Part shown: positions 12,424-63,300 of the stretch, piece after piece
How the letters are laid out: the number at the start of each line of letters is the position of its first letter
How positions within the stretch are numbered: the stretch's first letter is position 1
NCBI RefSeq assembly: GCF_004027225.2
Contig: NC_044278.2
Span: 9,858,001 to 9,922,000, forward strand
DNA from: Strigops habroptila
Taxonomy: Eukaryota > Chordata > Aves > Psittaciformes > Psittacidae
Direction of reading: 5' to 3'
DNA length: 64,000 nucleotides
Program-made: the position numbers and the translations under genes
The notes under the pieces: model-generated
Told to the model about the DNA's origin: nothing
Databases searched by the model: none
The model's input: only the letters and a program-made list of their open reading frames with translations

Positions 12424-22720
<10,297 letters not shown>

Positions 22721-26277: not shown

Positions 26278-29200
26278 ACCCAGTAGTCTCATTTTCCAAA
26301 AATCTGATCTTTCACATAACAAAAGATTCCCAGAGTAAGAAGGCACCTGCAAACACAAGTCTAGTGTGACCAGCAGCCTCATACCAAAACACAGAGGGAA
26401 GCCACCAACTTTCATCCCCTGCTGCTGCATCCCCAGTACTGCCTCCAAAGCTCGATGGCAGCACTTCAGTGTCATGCTCAACGTTATCTCTCTGAGCAGT
26501 GATAACTTCCATGTCTGAAATAAAGAGCAGAAAGGGAGTGAACCACCAAAGAGAGACAAAAGTTCCCTCTGTCTTTCCCCAGCTATAACAAAAGGCTTGC
26601 AGGCAAGCAAAGCAAGTGGAATGATGCTCGGTGAGAGAGATGTTTTATCGACGTGCTTAAAGCAGCATCTATTCCTACCTTTCAGAGGGGCCTGACATAA
26701 TCTGGAGATCCACTAGAAACCAGACGGTTACATTGGGATCCCAGCCAAGAACTTTCTGTCACTGCCGCTGAGGTTATCAAGATAAACCTGGTTATCAAGC
26801 CAAGACTACACACTGCACAGGAACCTCAATAGGCGGCAGCAGCAAAGCAGGACAGGCTAGCACGGCTTTGAAAGGACAGGCTCACAGCTTGCCAGAGGTA
26901 AAAGTCCTTCTAAGTACAAGTCACCTATAGCTGGAAGATTGCCATATGGCTCCAGTTTTGAGCTGTATGCTAACATCCTGTATTTCGTCACTCCTGGGGA
27001 ATTCTGCTAGAACTGGAAAAGAAATAAGGCTGGAGGAGCAGAGGCAGGGCTCAGCCTACCTGGAGGCTGCTGTTGCCACAAGCAACACAAGCCTTGTGCA
27101 GCAAGGGCCCAGCTGAGGGACATGAGGTGCTAGGCAGAGCTCAGGACTTGCCTTGGGAGCACTAAGGGCAGGCACAGCAGTGGGACCACCTCCTGGGGAC
27201 ACAAGAGCCGCTAAGCTAGGTCAGAACAATGGTCCATCTAAGCCCAGGAATCACTTTGCAGCACAGGGTGAGGACAGAGGGCTTTGCAGCCAGGGCAAGT
27301 GAGCAGCAATGCCTCCCAGCCTCGAGCAGTTCATGGCTTGTGGATCTTCTGAGCCAGTTATTTACCAGCCCCTTGTGCACACAGCTGGGTTTTCAACCTG
27401 CGTAAGCTTCTATCATCCACCATACCCTGCAGAAAGGAGAGGAGTTTCATGGCTACCTACACCATTGGTGCATTTGATGGGTCCTGGGGTTTTGGTTTTT
27501 TGCGTTTATTGGAAAAGAGCAAACAGTTGTTCCCTGTTCATCTTCTCCATGCCACTAACAATTTTACACGCTGTTATATCACTTCTTTCCCCATGGTCTC
27601 TTTTCCAAGCTTAAAGAGGCCTAGATTCTAACTGTTCCTCTCACAGCAACCATTCCAGAACTTAGGATGTATTCATTCTCCCTGAACACTTGCTAGTTTT
27701 GAAGTCCTTATTCAGATGGGGGGCACTAGAATGCAGTATTGAAGTACATGTACAGGGGGTTGTAATAATTTTCTCCATTTTGCTATCGAATAGTTCCTTT
27801 CCTAACAGCACCTCACTTTTATTTAGCTTTTCTGAAAGACCCCAGAAAACTTCCCTTGGGTTCTGCGTGTCAGAGACCTCACCACACAAGCCTGGAGTGA
27901 GACGGTTGCATTCAGAGGCTCCTCCCTGCCCTAATTCACTGGGAAGCATGGGGAAAAAGTTATTTTCCACTATAAGGATATTTAATTAATGGCTATTCAA
28001 CACAAAAAGACAAAGTCAACTCCCCCCCTAAAACAGGCTTATAACAACCACACAGATACTAAAGCCCTAAAAAGCAGAAGATAACACGAGCTGTAACAGT
28101 GACCAGGATTCCTGAGACGCCGACAGATTGAACCATTACAGGAAGCACTCAAGTACAGCCTTGAATTGCTTCAGTCAGAAACTGGAAAAACCAGAAAGCA
28201 AAATTATTGTGAACTTCATGGGAAAGGGCAGATTTATTATGGGATGTTTGCAGGGGATTCTGGGGCTGTATAAAGTTGATCATGCCATGTTTTAAGGAAG
28301 ATTATGGGAGCAAAACTTACTCTGGGAGGTTTAGGGGAAGCATCAAAGGAGGGGAAAGGGAGGCATCAAGCTAAATCAGAAGTGAGCATGGGAAATGTAG
28401 AGGAGGAATAAATAGAAGGGGGCAGTCACACAGGGCTGGCTTCTGGTCAGCATGTGTGCCTGGCTGAGCCCTGCACCTGATTACCACCATCCAACCTGGC
28501 CTTACATTAAACTAATCCTGGCCTTTTCCTCTGCATGCATGTGCATTTGTGATCCGCTAGCAAACTGCCAGCTAGACGAGCCCCTGAGAAGCATAAAAGG
28601 CCAAGGGCCAGTACTGGTCAGACTGCAGCCTAAGGATCCAAGTGCTCTATGAACGTGTATGCCCACTAGCATGCTCTAGCTTTGATGGGCCAGTGACCAA
28701 GAACAGGATTAGGCCTTTTTTGCCATTCGTATTTTCCTGGGCACCTGCCACAGCACTTTTATTCCATTTCTGTTAATCACTCTCCATCTGGTGCAGTGAG
28801 AGCACGTGTGCATGTGTCTGAGGGAGGTTTCTGGAGTTCACGCTCAGCCTCAACACTTGCTGAACCTGCTAACATTGGAAAGCAGCAGCCTCACATGTAG
28901 CAGACCAGGGCAGAAAGGATTCGCCATATCCTACAGTCCACTGCATTCAGCTGTCCTTAACAGCAAACACCGGAATAGCACATCCAAGTTCTCCCATGAA
29001 CCCAAAGCATAGCAAGGAAAACAAATCATCTCAAAGCCTCACGTGAGCTGAGTGAGAAAGGCAAGTGCAGAAATTATGCCTCAAGGTCTCTTACATATCC
29101 AACTCCATACACACTGATGGAGAAACACACTTGGTAGAAAGCTTATTAATGAATTGGCTCTAGAAAAAGATTTATAGACTATAGAGCAGAACCAAAGAAG

Positions 29201-29890: not shown

Positions 29891-32800
29891 TCACTGTCCT
29901 TTTGATTTCATCCTATGCTTCTTCCTGGTAGGGATTTGAGGACGCATCATTTTGGGAGAAGGCCGGCCAGCCTTCAAAGGTTTCCTCTGTGCTTGCAATG
30001 AACGTTTCTTCTTCAAAGCAGGCTGTGGCAGCTTTGAAGGCAGCTTCTGGTCTTTGTCAGTTTTTGATCCCTCAAGTTTCTTCTTTTTTGGCTGAGGCTC
30101 CATGGCAGTATCAGGGACAGTGGACGGAGCTGCTGCTTCCACAGCAGGTTCTTCATCTGAAATGAGAGAGAAACATGCAGGTATGAAGAACCTGCATGGC
30201 TTCTGCAGGGGAAGCAGCCTGTGAGGGCAGGCCCAGGCAGCTCAGCTGAACTCCAGCTCTAGGTTACCTTTTTGTGCCTGGGGGATGGCATTAGAGAATT
30301 TCTTGAACTTGGCAATGAAGAACCCATCCATATTATGCGTATGGGGATAGAAACGCCGCGTAGACTTGAGGGAGGGGTGGAAGCGACGGTCCTTGAACCT
30401 GGAGAAGTGGGGTGAGAAATGACAGAACACCTCCGCTCAAACCTGGCCACCAAGGAACAGTCACCTGTGCAGCTTGTGCTGTGGCACGCACCTGGTGAAG
30501 CCTTCCTTGCCAAAGTCCAGGCCTGTGGCCACCAAGCGAACATTGCGTTTCTTCAGGGCATAGTCCACAACCCACTCATTCTCCTCCACCTGCCAGAGAC
30601 TAAGTATTAGGACCAAAAGTTCACCAGTCTCCCAAGTAGATGAGCACAACAGAGCATGGAAGGTACATACCATGACGGAACAAGTGCAGTAGACAATGTA
30701 GCCCCCTGTCTCCGAGGCAGCATTGACTGAATCTATAGCACTAAGAATCAGCTCCTTCTGCAGGTGAGCACAGCGCAGGATGTCTTTCTCATCCTGAAAG
30801 AAAAAGATAGGTTAGGATGCCACAGGCAGAGAGAAGCACCCCAGGCCTCCGCTATGGATGGATGGATGGATGACAGGAGAGCAAAGTGCATTTGATATAG
30901 AAGATTCCAGAGTTTTCTGCAGAACTAACCTCAAAAAACCTAGCTCTGGTACAACACACAGTAGAATCATAGAATGGTTTAGGTTGGAAGGGACCTTTAA
31001 GATCACCTACTTCCAACCCCCCTGCCATGGGCAGAGACACCTTCCACTAGCCCAGGATGCTCAAAGCCCCGTCCGACCTGGCCTTGAAAGAGGAAAAGAG
31101 GAAAAGAGAAAGGAAGAAGGAAAGAGAAAGCAACAGGAAAGAGAAGGCAAAATCAGCATCCTTATTGCGGCCATCTCTCAAGAACAAAGCTGCCCCAGAG
31201 CCCTTCCTTTCATGGCTTATAGTTGAGTACCCATCTTGTGTCCCCACTGGTCACTCACTTTGTTGGTTTTGACAGCAGGATCCTTGGAAATGACACCGGT
31301 TCCACTACAAGGAGCATCGAGCAAGACACGGTCAAACCCTCCAAGCACCTACAGGCAGATGTACATTTGGAATTACACTCATAGGCAGGCACACAAAATA
31401 AGACCAACACCAGAAGACTGGGAAGTCAGGAAAGATCCATCACTCCTCCCCGTCCACCTTCCTGTCTCCCTATCAAACAACAAACACTCCTTGGCAGCCC
31501 TGCTCATCCCTCCTGTGTCAGCTGTCTCTGGAGAACACGGCTTTACTAAAGAGACAGTACAGCAGCTCCAGCTAAGCATATGTCAAGGTAGGTAAGGACA
31601 CCCAAAGCAGGCAGGAACATACCTTGGGGAACTGGCGTCCATCGCAGTTGCTCACTACAGCATTGGTGACTCCCAGCCGATGCAAGTTCCCCACCACGCT
31701 ACGCAGCCGCTCGGCGTTGCTGTCATTGGCCAAGATCGTACCTGTGTTCTTCATAAGCTGAGCTGCCAGATGGAAAAACACATCAGGAAGGGGCTGAAAA
31801 CCTCCTGTATTTGTGCCTGTAGGGACAGCCACCCCCTCCTTCCCACAGGTTCATTCCCCCTCTGCTCCCCCTTTCTGTATAGACCAGTGGGAACTCATCA
31901 CTTCACAAAGCATCCCCCCAAACCTTCCCACCCAAGGCTCCCCGGTGATACCTATGTAGCTGGTCTTGCCTCCTGGCGCACAGCACATATCCAGGATGCG
32001 TTCGTTCTCCTGTGGAGCCAAAGCCATGACAGGGAGGAGACTGGAGGCTCCTTGCAGCATGTAGTGCCCAGCCAGATACTCAGGGGTGGCACCTGGCCAG
32101 GGAAGGCAGAACAAAAGAAGATGACACATGAAAGCAAGGGAGCCAAGAGCAGGTCAGCTCAGCCATAGCACAAGAAAGGTGATCTCACCAATGGGCACAG
32201 AGGAGTCATAAATAACAAGTCCTGTTTTTGACCACTTCCCCAAAGGGTCGAGATTCACGCCACGGTTGATTAGAGCCTGCAAGACAAGGAGATGGGTCTG
32301 AGACAGAGACATCACCCCGCGTGACATGCACCACAGGAGACAACCACAGGTTCCTGCTCACCTGCGCCAGGTCCCGTCGCCGTGTCTTGAGCGTGTTGGT
32401 GCGGATGGTCACAGGGCGGGGAACCTCATTGGCTTCCAGGAAGTTTATCAGCTGGATGAAAGAAGGGAGAGAGAATAGAGATGAAAACAAAGACCCATGG
32501 AGGCAGCCAAATCCTCAAAAGTCAGCAGGGCAGGATCCTACCTCAGGGAGTGGGAAGATGTCCATGAGCTTTGTGAGCAAGAAGTCACTGTATGAATAGT
32601 AGGCAGCCATGTCCCTGCGCAACAAGGCGAGGTACTCCTGTCGTGTGCGTCCTTCCTCTCGCTTCACCACAAAGTCCTGCAGCACCTCCATGTTGCCCTT
32701 GATGCGCTGGTGAATGGTGTGCAGGTCAGGCGGCTCAGCAGGTAGAAAGACCATTAAGGAATCATAAACAGCTAAAGAACTCGCACACGAGCTCTTTACA

Positions 32801-37690: not shown

Positions 37691-58646
<20,956 letters not shown>

Positions 58647-59585
58647 TCATTGAAAAGAAGAAAAGAGAAAGTTACAGCAGACCTGAACTGTTTTCCCCAG
58701 CAATAGTGCTACCAAGAAGATCCGTGAGAAAGCTTAGACAGCAACTTCACTGGATTTGGAGCCTACGGATAATAGAAACACTGGCAGCAAGTATCATCTT
58801 AGAGTTGTGATGGAGGAGGCTTTGAAGACACTAGATATTAACCTGAGTCAGCAACTCATCCCTGCCGAGGAAGCCAAAACAGCTGTCCTATAGGAAAAGC
58901 CTCCCGTCCCCTGCAGCCAGCTGCCCTCGGTTATTGCTACCTTGGCAGGGAAGGCAGCCGGGCTTCCCAAGAAGACCTTGTACCGCCGGGACGCTGTCAG
59001 CGAGCCGCCTCGGGGAGCGGGCAGCCCACGCGGGGCCCGGTGCGGCGGAACTGGCGCTGCCGGCAGTGCCCGGCTCGCCCGCCCCAACTTGGCGCGCCGG
59101 CCCCGGGCTGACACGGCCGCAGAGGCCGGGCAGCGGCGCCCCGCTCCGCCGCCGGCCCCACACAAAGGGCAGGGCTGGCTCGGCGGCGCCCGCAGCGCCA
59201 CGCAGCCCCGTTCCGCTGCCCGCCGCACCCGGCTCCCCCCGCCCGGAGCGGGGTTGCGCGGCGCAGGGCGGGGGCGGCGGGAGGGGGGCAGCGGCTGCCG
59301 GGCGGGGGCGCGGGGCGGGGCCGGGGCAGTCCGGCTCGCGTGCGGCGCGGGGCCGCCCCCCCCCGGGGACGGACGGCGGGGACCAGCGGTGCGGGGCCGG
59401 GTGGGGGAGGGGAAATGCCCTGCGGCCGCCCGGGCACGGGCACGGCGCGGCCCCGGGGAGGGGGGGGGGAAGCTGCGGCCGGGAGCTAACGGGGCGCCCG
59501 GCGGAGGGGGGGTGCCCGGCCGCAGGAACACCCCCGAGAGGCGGCGGGAGGCCCTTCCCGCCCTCGTCCCCTCCCGGCTCCTCAC

Positions 59586-59690
59586 CCAGCACCAGACCCC
59601 GGCTCCGCTCTCGCCGCCACCGCTGCTGCTGCTGCTGAAGGGAAAATGGCTCCGGCCCCGGCACCGCCTCTTAAAGGGGAAAAAACCCGG
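59586..59690 (-). other. CHD4: CHD4 probable non-coding exon 1
   Basis: The gene strand shows an AG-rich leader with a (CAG)n run and GCCATTTTCCC, followed by a donor at GTGAGGAGCC (intron from 59585). AAAATGGC at 59643-59650 on the + strand fits the YY1 consensus, which is common at TATA-less starts. The 5' limit is a guess. With this exon the gene has 40 exons, as in human. Confidence 0.5.
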
Positions 59691-59715
59691 CCAGGCCCCG
59701 CCCCGCTCCCGCCTC

Positions 59716-60301
59716 CATCCCATAATATGTCCCCGGACCCCAGCAACAGGCCACGCCCCTATCTCCTCGGTAACCACCCCCCCCGAGACATCCCATAATA
59801 TCCGCCCTCCCCTCAGAACTTCCCACTCACTGCCCGGCCCGGCATCCCATAATAATAACCCCTCCCGCCGGGAACATCCCATAATAAGTCCCCCAACCCT
59901 CCCCCCCACCCCCCCGGAGAAACATCCCATAATACTCCCCACGCTCGCACCCCTTCGCTCCGGCATCCCATAATACTCGCGCCCCCCTCCCCCCCCCCAG
60001 CCCAGGACCCCGCGCCAGGGCAGGGCGCCCCTCGCGGCTCGGCCCCTCGCCCGCGCGCGTGCCGGCCGGCCTGCCATCCCATAATAGGCACACCCCCCCC
60101 GCGGCGGGGGGGGGGGGAGGAGGACAGGGGGCACACTGTATACCCCCCCCCGAACATCCCATAATAGTCACACCTCGGGCGCACATCCCATAATAGTCAC
60201 ACATATACACACACACACCCCCCCTCCACCCCCCACCCCGCTCAGGCAGGCATCCCATAATAGTCGCCGGGAGCCACCGTCCAGCCAGGCATCCCATAAT
60301 A
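59716..60301 (+). promoter_or_regulatory. ZNF410 motif array at CHD4 promoter (11 perfect 12-mers)
   Basis: CATCCCATAATA occurs without mismatch at 59716, 59789, 59843, 59875, 59923, 59964, 60075, 60155, 60184, 60251 and 60290 (first base of each), all on the + strand, which is antisense to CHD4. Spacing is irregular (29-111 bp). A given 12-mer is expected about once per 17 million bases of one strand of random DNA, and such AT-rich words should be rarer still in this GC-rich island. Known: mammalian ZNF410 binds this sequence and activates CHD4 almost exclusively through such clusters. Function in this species is inferred. Confidence 0.93.
60205..60228. repeat. (AC)n microsatellite between ZNF410-type sites
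   Basis: A short ACATATACACACACACAC run followed by a C-tract lies between array copies 9 and 10. Confidence 0.7.
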
Positions 60302-63300
60302 CTCGCGGCCGCCCTCCCCGCACCCCAGGGGGCTCCGTCCCCCGTCACCCCCCGCGCCATTACCCTCTGCCGCCCACCCCGCCCCACCCGGCCCCCGGCC
60401 CGCCGCGCCGCCGTCAAGGTCCCGGGGCAAGGGGCCAGCCACGCAGCCCGGAGCGCTCTGGCATCGCCCAGCCCCTGCGCGCCGCCCGCCCTCCCGCTGA
60501 CACAGGGCCCTGGCGGCCCGCAGCGGGCACCACCCTCTGCCGGGCCCCCACTGATGGCACTCAATCTTGGGGCTGAGTGCTCTGCTCGCTTCCCTTCCCT
60601 GTCCCACGCCCCATCCTGCACGCTCTGCCCGCGGGGCTGCAGGGCTGCTCCAAGGCTATCCATCCCCAGCCCCAGCACAGCCACCACGGGTGACTTCTGT
60701 TGTCTCCCCTCCACACACAGCGCCAGGCCTTTCCTCTCCCAATGGCTGGTATCTACAGAACTATCTGTGCCTCAGGCATTCATGGTGTCTCCGTGTACTG
60801 CATCCCTCCCTCTCACCTACCACCACACACAGCTCCGTGCTGCGGCCCTCTGCCAGGAGACTCATCACTTTATACGGACATGAGCGGTCCATAGGTATAA
60901 ACACACCCCAATTATGCATGTGCAACCATATCATTCATTTCCCATTAAAATCACATCCCATAATGCTGCCTATCCCCCGTTTAGCATTGTCATGACACTG
61001 TTAATCTCAACCAAGAGGCCCAGTCCTGTCCATCTCTCCTGGTAAACACATTGGGTGTCGACATTGGGTTCCTCCTCACACAAACAGCTCCGCTGTCCCA
61101 TGCCTGGTGGTTCACATGCACGTTTTGTCCTGATGCAGTGAAACATCCATCCCAGAATACGATCAGAGGATTTACAGTTACAGACTGCAATAGGTCATTC
61201 ACGGATCCTGCACCATGATCCACACTGTGTCTGCCAGATCACGTCAAAAATGTGTCCACATGTACACCGGGCATGCAGGTATTCCATAACACCATCCTCT
61301 TGCCTCTGTTGAGTGCTGGAGTGTCTCGGACTAACAGCCACCTCTCCCCTACTGGCACGTGCAGCCCCCGATGGCCCACCTCCTCATGCCAGCACCTCTC
61401 TGTTGAGGTACTATCAAGCTTCGCCATCTCGCCCATGTGCCCATCAACACCATGTGCTCTGGCATGGTCTTGCAACATGAAATGTGCAGGCAGCTGCCCC
61501 TCCCATGCATGTCCTTCCCCCCTCACTGGCGAAGACCAGACCCTATGTCCCAAAACGCCATTGCGTTACCCACCTTCTGGCACACATAGAAATCCCATTG
61601 ACCCTCCAGCCAGCCACGGTACACACGTGCACCATCCCTGTCTGTGTACCTTTGCCTGAATGACACCACTGCTATTGTTTATCCCACAGAGAAAAAGCAG
61701 TAGGAAAGAGCCACACATGCTATCCACTCTCAATGTGGATCAAGCATAACAGCGCTACAAACATGTATGGTGGGTAACACCGCCACCAAACTCATGTGGA
61801 CCCCGGTAGGACTTTTCATTCCCTCCTTTGTGCACTGACAGCCATAACCCTAACGGGAGCCAGGCAGACAGCCACACCAAATTCCCTGTGCTGAGCAGCC
61901 TGGCCCCAACCCCAACTGGACTCTGTGTGTACACCTCTCTTCTACCGGTTTGGCCGCAGGGTGAGAGCTACAACATGGGTGTAAAGACCCTGCGAAGGGT
62001 TGGACTTGATGATCTTAAAGGTCTTTTCCAACTGAGTTCATTCTATGATTCTATGACTGAAGGGGGTTAGTTACTGGGGCTGCCTCTGCAGGTGCTCCCT
62101 GACACTCTTGCTGGCAGGGTTATGATCTGGGGTTATTATCTCTTTGCTACTGGTTAGGCAACTGGTAGCACTTTGGTCACGAAAGCGCCAAGCTTCCCAA
62201 TGAGCCACTGCTTCCCTGAAACCCTTTTTTGTATGACACTTGAATGCATTTTTACCATGAATGCCCCCAAGGTTCCCCACCTCACCTCCACCTCCTTTTT
62301 CTTTGTAACTCAAGTTTTTCAGTCAGCAAATGCCTTAATTTTCACTCTAAAAAAAAAAAAATCCATACAGGATATAAGTGATTATGATTAAGGTGTTTTT
62401 TTTGTGTTTGTGAGGGCCAAGTAGATTAAATGGATTTCAAAAAAAAAAAAAAAGAGATTTCTAAATGTTTTCCTTTGATAGTAACACCATGAAACAGATT
62501 TCCAGCTATTTGGCTGCATTAAACCTGCAAGTTGCCCTACCTTACTGCGGTTTGATTACTTACCTGGTTTAACTGAATCTTCTGAGTTTATAGCACTTGG
62601 CTTGGAAACAATTACAGCAAGATCTGTGTAATATAACCTTCCCTACCCGCTGACGGGTGTTAATGCCCCTAACAAGCCCTCAGCACACCTCTTTTGGGGA
62701 AAAATGCCTGCAACATCCCTTCATGTCAGTGCTGTGCTCTTGTTAGGGAAATCCAAACCAAACAGAGGACCCTCCACACCCTCCCCCCAGCTCTGCTCCA
62801 GAGGAGAACTGGGTGAAGTGGTCTCTATACCCCCACAGCTCCAGTGCTGGCCCAGACTCTCAGTTACTTCTGTGGTTTTGTGCATGGTGAGTTGCTCAGA
62901 GTCCAGGTCCCTGTCCCACCTTCCTCTGCTGCACAGGCAGCCTCTCCTGCCCAGGTCTTTATCAGGCCCACAGCCCTTTTTCAGTTTCACTTTCGAAAGA
63001 GACACGTTTCTCCAAACTAACAAAAAGAGCCAAGCGTGACCCTGGTACTCCTTCGGTGTTCTCCCTCAGGAGAGGATGCAGGCCAGAGACGACCTGTGCA
63101 GCATATTTCAGTGCTGCCCCATGAGGGAGGCAAGGGGTGGGGGGAGAAAGGGACTCCAGAGCATTTTGGAAAGGGTGACTTTCCAAGCTAGCGTGAACTG
63201 TTCGTATGTAGGACACAGATAACAGACTATAAGCATGACTTGCTGGTTCTGCAGACAATGTGAACTTAAAGCTCAGTTTATGGTCTCTCGAGCTATTTTT

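Follow-up and report, generated by a model that had tools for sequence, protein, structure and literature searches.

The locus described here raises a question: does a bird carry, at the promoter of its CHD4 gene, a ZNF410 site cluster of the kind reported from mammals, and if so, what could such a cluster tell about the age of this factor-target pair and about the selection that acts on it? In 2021 Lan et al. and Vinjamur et al. reportedly described clusters of ZNF410 motifs in mammals, at the CHD4 promoter as well as at a distal position. According to a review (PMC9181152), ZNF410 is found in human erythroid cells at eight loci, CHD4 alone among them being both highly enriched and responsive, and the human CHD4 clusters are termed unique in density and highly conserved. 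Another paper (PMC9426921) assigns all eight ZNF410 peaks to the CHD4 promoter region and counts 2,894 conserved sites predicted for ZNF410, 23 of them at CHD4; its citation of thousands of ChIP-seq peaks of ZNF410 in an erythroleukaemia line counts against the explanation we favor below. In the papers covered, our literature search returned no description of an array of this type from a bird, and a published one may still exist.

CHD4 and its promoter

The window, i.e. the whole stretch of 64,000 nucleotides (64 kb) that was analysed, exhibits on its minus strand a series of frames running from 58.6 down to 37.8 kb, which encode CHD4 to near the C terminus. Searches with a human CHD4 probe revealed exon blocks ordered from the N to the C terminus between 58580 and 37796, which delimit the coding region (37796..58580, minus strand); no block was found for a few stretches of the probe, such as 30–80 and 112–144, and three extra matches are either stray or fall between two PHD fingers. 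The coding start was assigned to 58494..58580 (minus strand) from the translated frame and from homology. The piece that covers the helicase region matches the CHD4 structure 6ryr in the PDB with an E-value of 2.4e-38, ahead of CHD1 at 2e-15, and the first 340 residues of the exons joined by hand are most similar to CHD4 of Hirundo, Zonotrichia and Athene (98–99%), followed by a turtle (96%). The exon order, the 6ryr match and the similarity to bird CHD4 thus bear out the original identification of this minus-strand gene as CHD4, and the avian origin of the DNA, which had also been proposed, agrees with the three top matches, all of them from birds.

Downstream of CHD4, on the same strand, lies what we take, by eye from similarity, to be NOP2, with its start near 35.7 kb. 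The one clear match in a Pfam scan of 20 ORFs was an RsmB/F methyltransferase domain (Methyltr_RsmB-F) in the frame 30461–30811, presumed to belong to NOP2. A match to the Pfam family CDK5RAP3 at 13001–13963 (minus strand, E-value 0.0095) is weak, as its 15.3 bits are below the cut-off of 22.6, and is probably due to chance. SCARNA11 is located within an intron of CHD4 (41187–41325, minus strand, 70.5 bits), a sequence near 22 kb is presumably IFFO1-like, and the stretch 61985–62060 resembles CR1 retroposons, which are common in birds, in their 3' tail.

Inspection by eye of the minus strand revealed a TTTAAG box at ~59675, a GCCATTTTCC element at ~59648 and, at 59585, a GT that would serve as splice donor, which together suggest a non-coding first exon at ~59655–59586 (the probable CHD4 first exon, 59586..59655, minus strand). 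The array discussed below starts 1136 bases upstream of the CHD4 start codon and would span the region from ~60–70 to ~650 bases upstream of the putative transcription start, which was likewise placed by eye. This locates the array in the CHD4 promoter, a short distance ahead of the probable first exon, where it had been predicted to lie.

The 12-mer array

Exact matching throughout the window identified eleven perfect copies of the 12-mer CATCCCATAATA on the plus strand, at 59716..60301; they start at positions 59716, 59789, 59843, 59875, 59923, 59964, 60075, 60155, 60184, 60251 and 60290, and the final copy ends at 60301. The recount thus reproduces the eleven perfect 12-mers of one orientation in 586 bp from which the original prediction set out, i.e. 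more than ten perfect motifs close together, and the base composition of the array (GC 0.66, CpG observed/expected 0.75) fits the CpG-island setting that had been attributed to it. Markov models of order 1–3 predict only 0.0013–0.0044 exact copies of CATCCCATAATA per strand per 64 kb, and the expectation on the plus strand of the array, calculated from the local composition, is 2.4e-6. With up to two mismatches allowed, the whole window contains 16 matches, compared to 3.37 expected and to a maximum of 9 over 100 shuffles. In a survey of every 12-mer present three or more times in the window, no word apart from CATCCCATAATA and the variants that overlap it had more than three non-overlapping copies per 600 bp, and the array at 59716–60301 is the sole CATCCCATAATA cluster in the window. 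A chance origin of the array is rejected by the shuffles, by the Markov expectations and by the survey of 12-mer clustering, and the eleven-copy array is confirmed as a genuine and strong observation.

Outside the array, two copies with a single mismatch were found in the same orientation, CATCCCATAATG at 60954..60965 (plus strand, 0.65 kb past the array) and CATCCCAGAATA at 61148..61159 (plus strand), and the mismatch search revealed two further copies with two mismatches, starting at 20953 (minus strand) and 39536 (plus strand). From the array to the end of the window, over 3.7 kb, no second, distal cluster was found, only the copies at 60954 and 61148; the human distal cluster lies at ~6 kb, so that an equivalent cluster would fall past the window end. 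A lone perfect 12-mer, whose membership in the system is uncertain, is located at 28235..28246 (minus strand), ~1.65 kb past the last NOP2-like frame (29894); the expectation for a perfect copy on the minus strand is 0.0013–0.0032 per 64 kb (Markov models of order 1–3). This isolated copy indicates that exact sites occur beyond the cluster too, which counts against the favored explanation. A scan of public collections, which serves as a loose background, as neither collection is vertebrate and records close to the genome of the window were possibly left out, identified two exact copies 17–47 bases apart in one stretch of viral_contigs and in one stretch of genome_contigs. Both loci (L001 and L002) hold just their two copies at no more than one mismatch, and the two copies of the bacterial pair (L002) have common flanks and resemble a short repeat.

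Read as CATCCCATAATA, all eleven copies are antisense to CHD4 (p 0.001 in a plain sign test). The plus strand is C-rich and chance copies are ~50 times likelier to arise on it (expectation within the array 2.4e-6, versus 4.7e-8 on the minus strand), so the uniform orientation taken alone proves little and need not be functional. It may be partly a product of the C-rich strand, and for this reason we do not press any function read into it.

The distances from start to start are 73, 54, 32, 48, 41, 111, 80, 29, 67 and 39, an irregular spacing with extremes of 29 and 111 bases. A test for helical phasing at 10.4–10.6 bp gave no support (p 0.21–0.61), and Tandem Repeats Finder, run with the default score, reported no array at 59716–60301. 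The core letters are intact in 132 of 132 cases, and no copies with 1–3 mismatches were found in 59600–60400. Measured against random core-free positions from the same island, pairwise identity of the flanks is at background (P 0.05) in six of the eight bins; it is elevated at -12..-9 (P 0.047) and +5..+8 (P 0.007), and borderline at -8..-5 (P 0.094). A cruder test on 32 flank positions gave a mean pairwise identity of 13.5 letters, compared to 10.2 for random pairs from the island, with the copies at 59964 and 60290 as the nearest pair (21 of 32 letters in common). Given this residual similarity, some copies may have arisen from one another by duplication or may have preferred adjacent bases in common, and that part of the array may have descended by duplication is a further point against the favored explanation. 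The combination of intact cores and largely diverged flanks suggests that purifying selection acts on each core, or else that perfect sites were gained repeatedly and independently, and either one requires a reader of the full 12-mer. What the sequence argues for is constraint on the individual cores and not on their number.

Preferred bases are found also beyond the 12-mer: T is found at +2 in 7 of 11 copies (p 1.5e-5, the local T frequency being 0.094), and all 11 have C at +5 (p 7e-4), both drawn from 18 tested positions and given with uncorrected p values. The preference for T at +2 is strong and that for C at +5 modest; both would fit a footprint longer than 12 bases.

ZNF410 as the candidate reader

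The 12-mer CATCCCATAATA is what we take to be the consensus site of ZNF410. Among the papers covered by a text search, none gives the letters of the 12-mer together with ZNF410, and the three that do contain the letters bear titles on other subjects; this link is the least well documented one. A review of the finger code (PMC12264921) describes two contacts of the ZNF410 fingers: in finger two a Gln at -5 reads adenine and in finger four a Lys at -1 reads guanine, both across the strand. We propose a register in which finger three is placed on AAT and finger four on CAT. It would suit this Lys as well as the pair of Asn residues in finger three, and it would put the last A and positions +1 to +5, the site of the additional base preferences, under fingers two and one.

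The original prediction had suggested a comparison of the avian zinc-finger contacts with a reference as a check, and this comparison, carried out against the solved structure 6WMI with database rows of other birds standing in for the gene of this genome, came out in its favor. Four of the six bird ZNF410 rows, representing three species (Apteryx with two rows, Chaetura and Onychostruthus), are identical to 6WMI in all five 12-residue recognition stretches, the row from Chrysolophus is identical in all four fingers present, and a partial record from a kingfisher deviates, exhibiting a copy of finger two in the place of finger one. Judged by these rows, a ZNF410 with conserved contacts is present in the bird lineage. 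The wider set comprises 56 rows (10 from frogs, 46 from other animals) assigned to ZNF410 by name from the best 120 of 1167 matches by score; these rows are clusters or isoforms and not species, unnamed ones (P0027, P0050, P0076, P0102 etc.) were excluded, and a row from Naja naja was counted as ZNF410, though named only putative zinc finger protein. Among the non-frog rows, 37 of 46, including the lungfish, retain in each of the five fingers the 6WMI residues at -7, -5, -4 and -1. Of the nine deviating rows, four are from snakes and carry a single change, in finger one; those of a newt and a mole-rat likewise carry a single change, in finger five; and those of the kingfisher, the jerboa and Chrysolophus are incomplete or odd records.

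The frog ZNF410 rows (P0001–P0009 and P0016) form a group of their own. Nine of the ten exhibit, among the matches listed, ten fingers corresponding to the five-finger array present twice, and the tenth (Gastrophryne) has eight matched fingers. In the nine doubled rows the two halves are 98–100% identical, and Arg replaces Trp at -7 of finger one. A list ranked by score favors doubled arrays, so frogs with a single array may be missing from it, and the doubling is possibly an annotation error.

Readings of the array and its age

The array is best read as the bird equivalent of the ZNF410-CHD4 cluster that has been reported from mammals. That ZNF410 is the protein concerned is very likely, and we hold with considerable confidence that the array is the ZNF410 site cluster of the avian CHD4 promoter, bound by the factor and activating the gene. 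This explanation is based on the number of copies far above chance, the position at CHD4, the intact cores between diverged flanks, the conservation of the contacts in bird ZNF410 and the reports from mammals. We infer that ZNF410 binds to the array and activates CHD4 in this bird: several ZNF410 molecules would occupy the cluster, each using its five zinc fingers to read one 12-mer and some bases 3' of it, and their occupancy would activate CHD4, the remodeller of NuRD. Because full-strength sites are clustered there, the CHD4 locus would stand out from scattered single sites. The gene, the position in the promoter, the dense arrangement of more than ten perfect motifs and the base-contact residues of the factor are all like those of the mammalian system; unlike it, the array belongs to a bird, and the human distal cluster has no counterpart in the 3.7 kb up to the window end. 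With the homotypic clusters of transcription factor sites in CpG-island promoters, a general class, the array shares repeated identical sites, irregular spacing and largely unrelated flanks, but here it is letter-perfect and its factor has reportedly practically one functional target.

Or perhaps the array is used, and all that matters is that there are enough sites? In this variant of the same explanation sites above the threshold would be born and lost freely, and the number eleven would carry no information on dosage. Irregular spacing, largely diverged flanks and the two outer copies with a single mismatch fit such continual gain and loss; however, free decay should leave some imperfect copies among the eleven perfect ones, and none with 1–3 mismatches is seen in 59600–60400. 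We regard the variant as a serious possibility that falls somewhat short of probable. A protein other than ZNF410 could read the 12-mer at the bird CHD4 promoter, given that the identity of the 12-mer as a ZNF410 site is presumed and that the text search did not document the pairing, but this is quite improbable: bird ZNF410 retains its contact residues, and CHD4 is the very gene at which the human ZNF410 clusters have been reported, as stated in PMC9181152 and PMC9426921. Least credible of all, and very hard to sustain, is a functionless recent tandem repeat or assembly artefact, which would account for the single orientation, the likeness of the flanks at 59964 and 60290 and the mean flank identity in excess of random pairs, but which is disfavored by the irregular spacing, the silence of Tandem Repeats Finder at default score and the six flank bins at background while the cores are identical, even if some flank similarity persists.

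Within the ZNF410 reading, a bolder version can be formulated, in which a circuit of one factor and one target predates the split of mammals and birds, selection keeps the sites at full strength and their number near a set value, and the promoter acts as a counter of NuRD dosage, its cores keeping every letter while the intervening flanks turn over. We consider this version rather unlikely; selection on copy number that sets NuRD dosage is put forward as a hypothesis. As regards age, the review mentioned above (PMC9181152) already states the conservation of the human CHD4 cluster, so the general point is not new. The reports from mammals and the array from one bird represent two lineages, from which an amniote age is reasonably deduced; the arrangement was probably inherited from the amniote ancestor, which would make the circuit older than the mammal-bird split.

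Most transcription factors bind to thousands of places, and ZNF410, reportedly with practically one functional target, is an exception among them. A pairing common to mammals and birds would be some 300 million years old, and the intact cores of the bird array suggest that an exclusive pairing of a factor with its target can last that long. The array would also permit a comparison of copy number, affinity and CHD4 dosage across amniotes.
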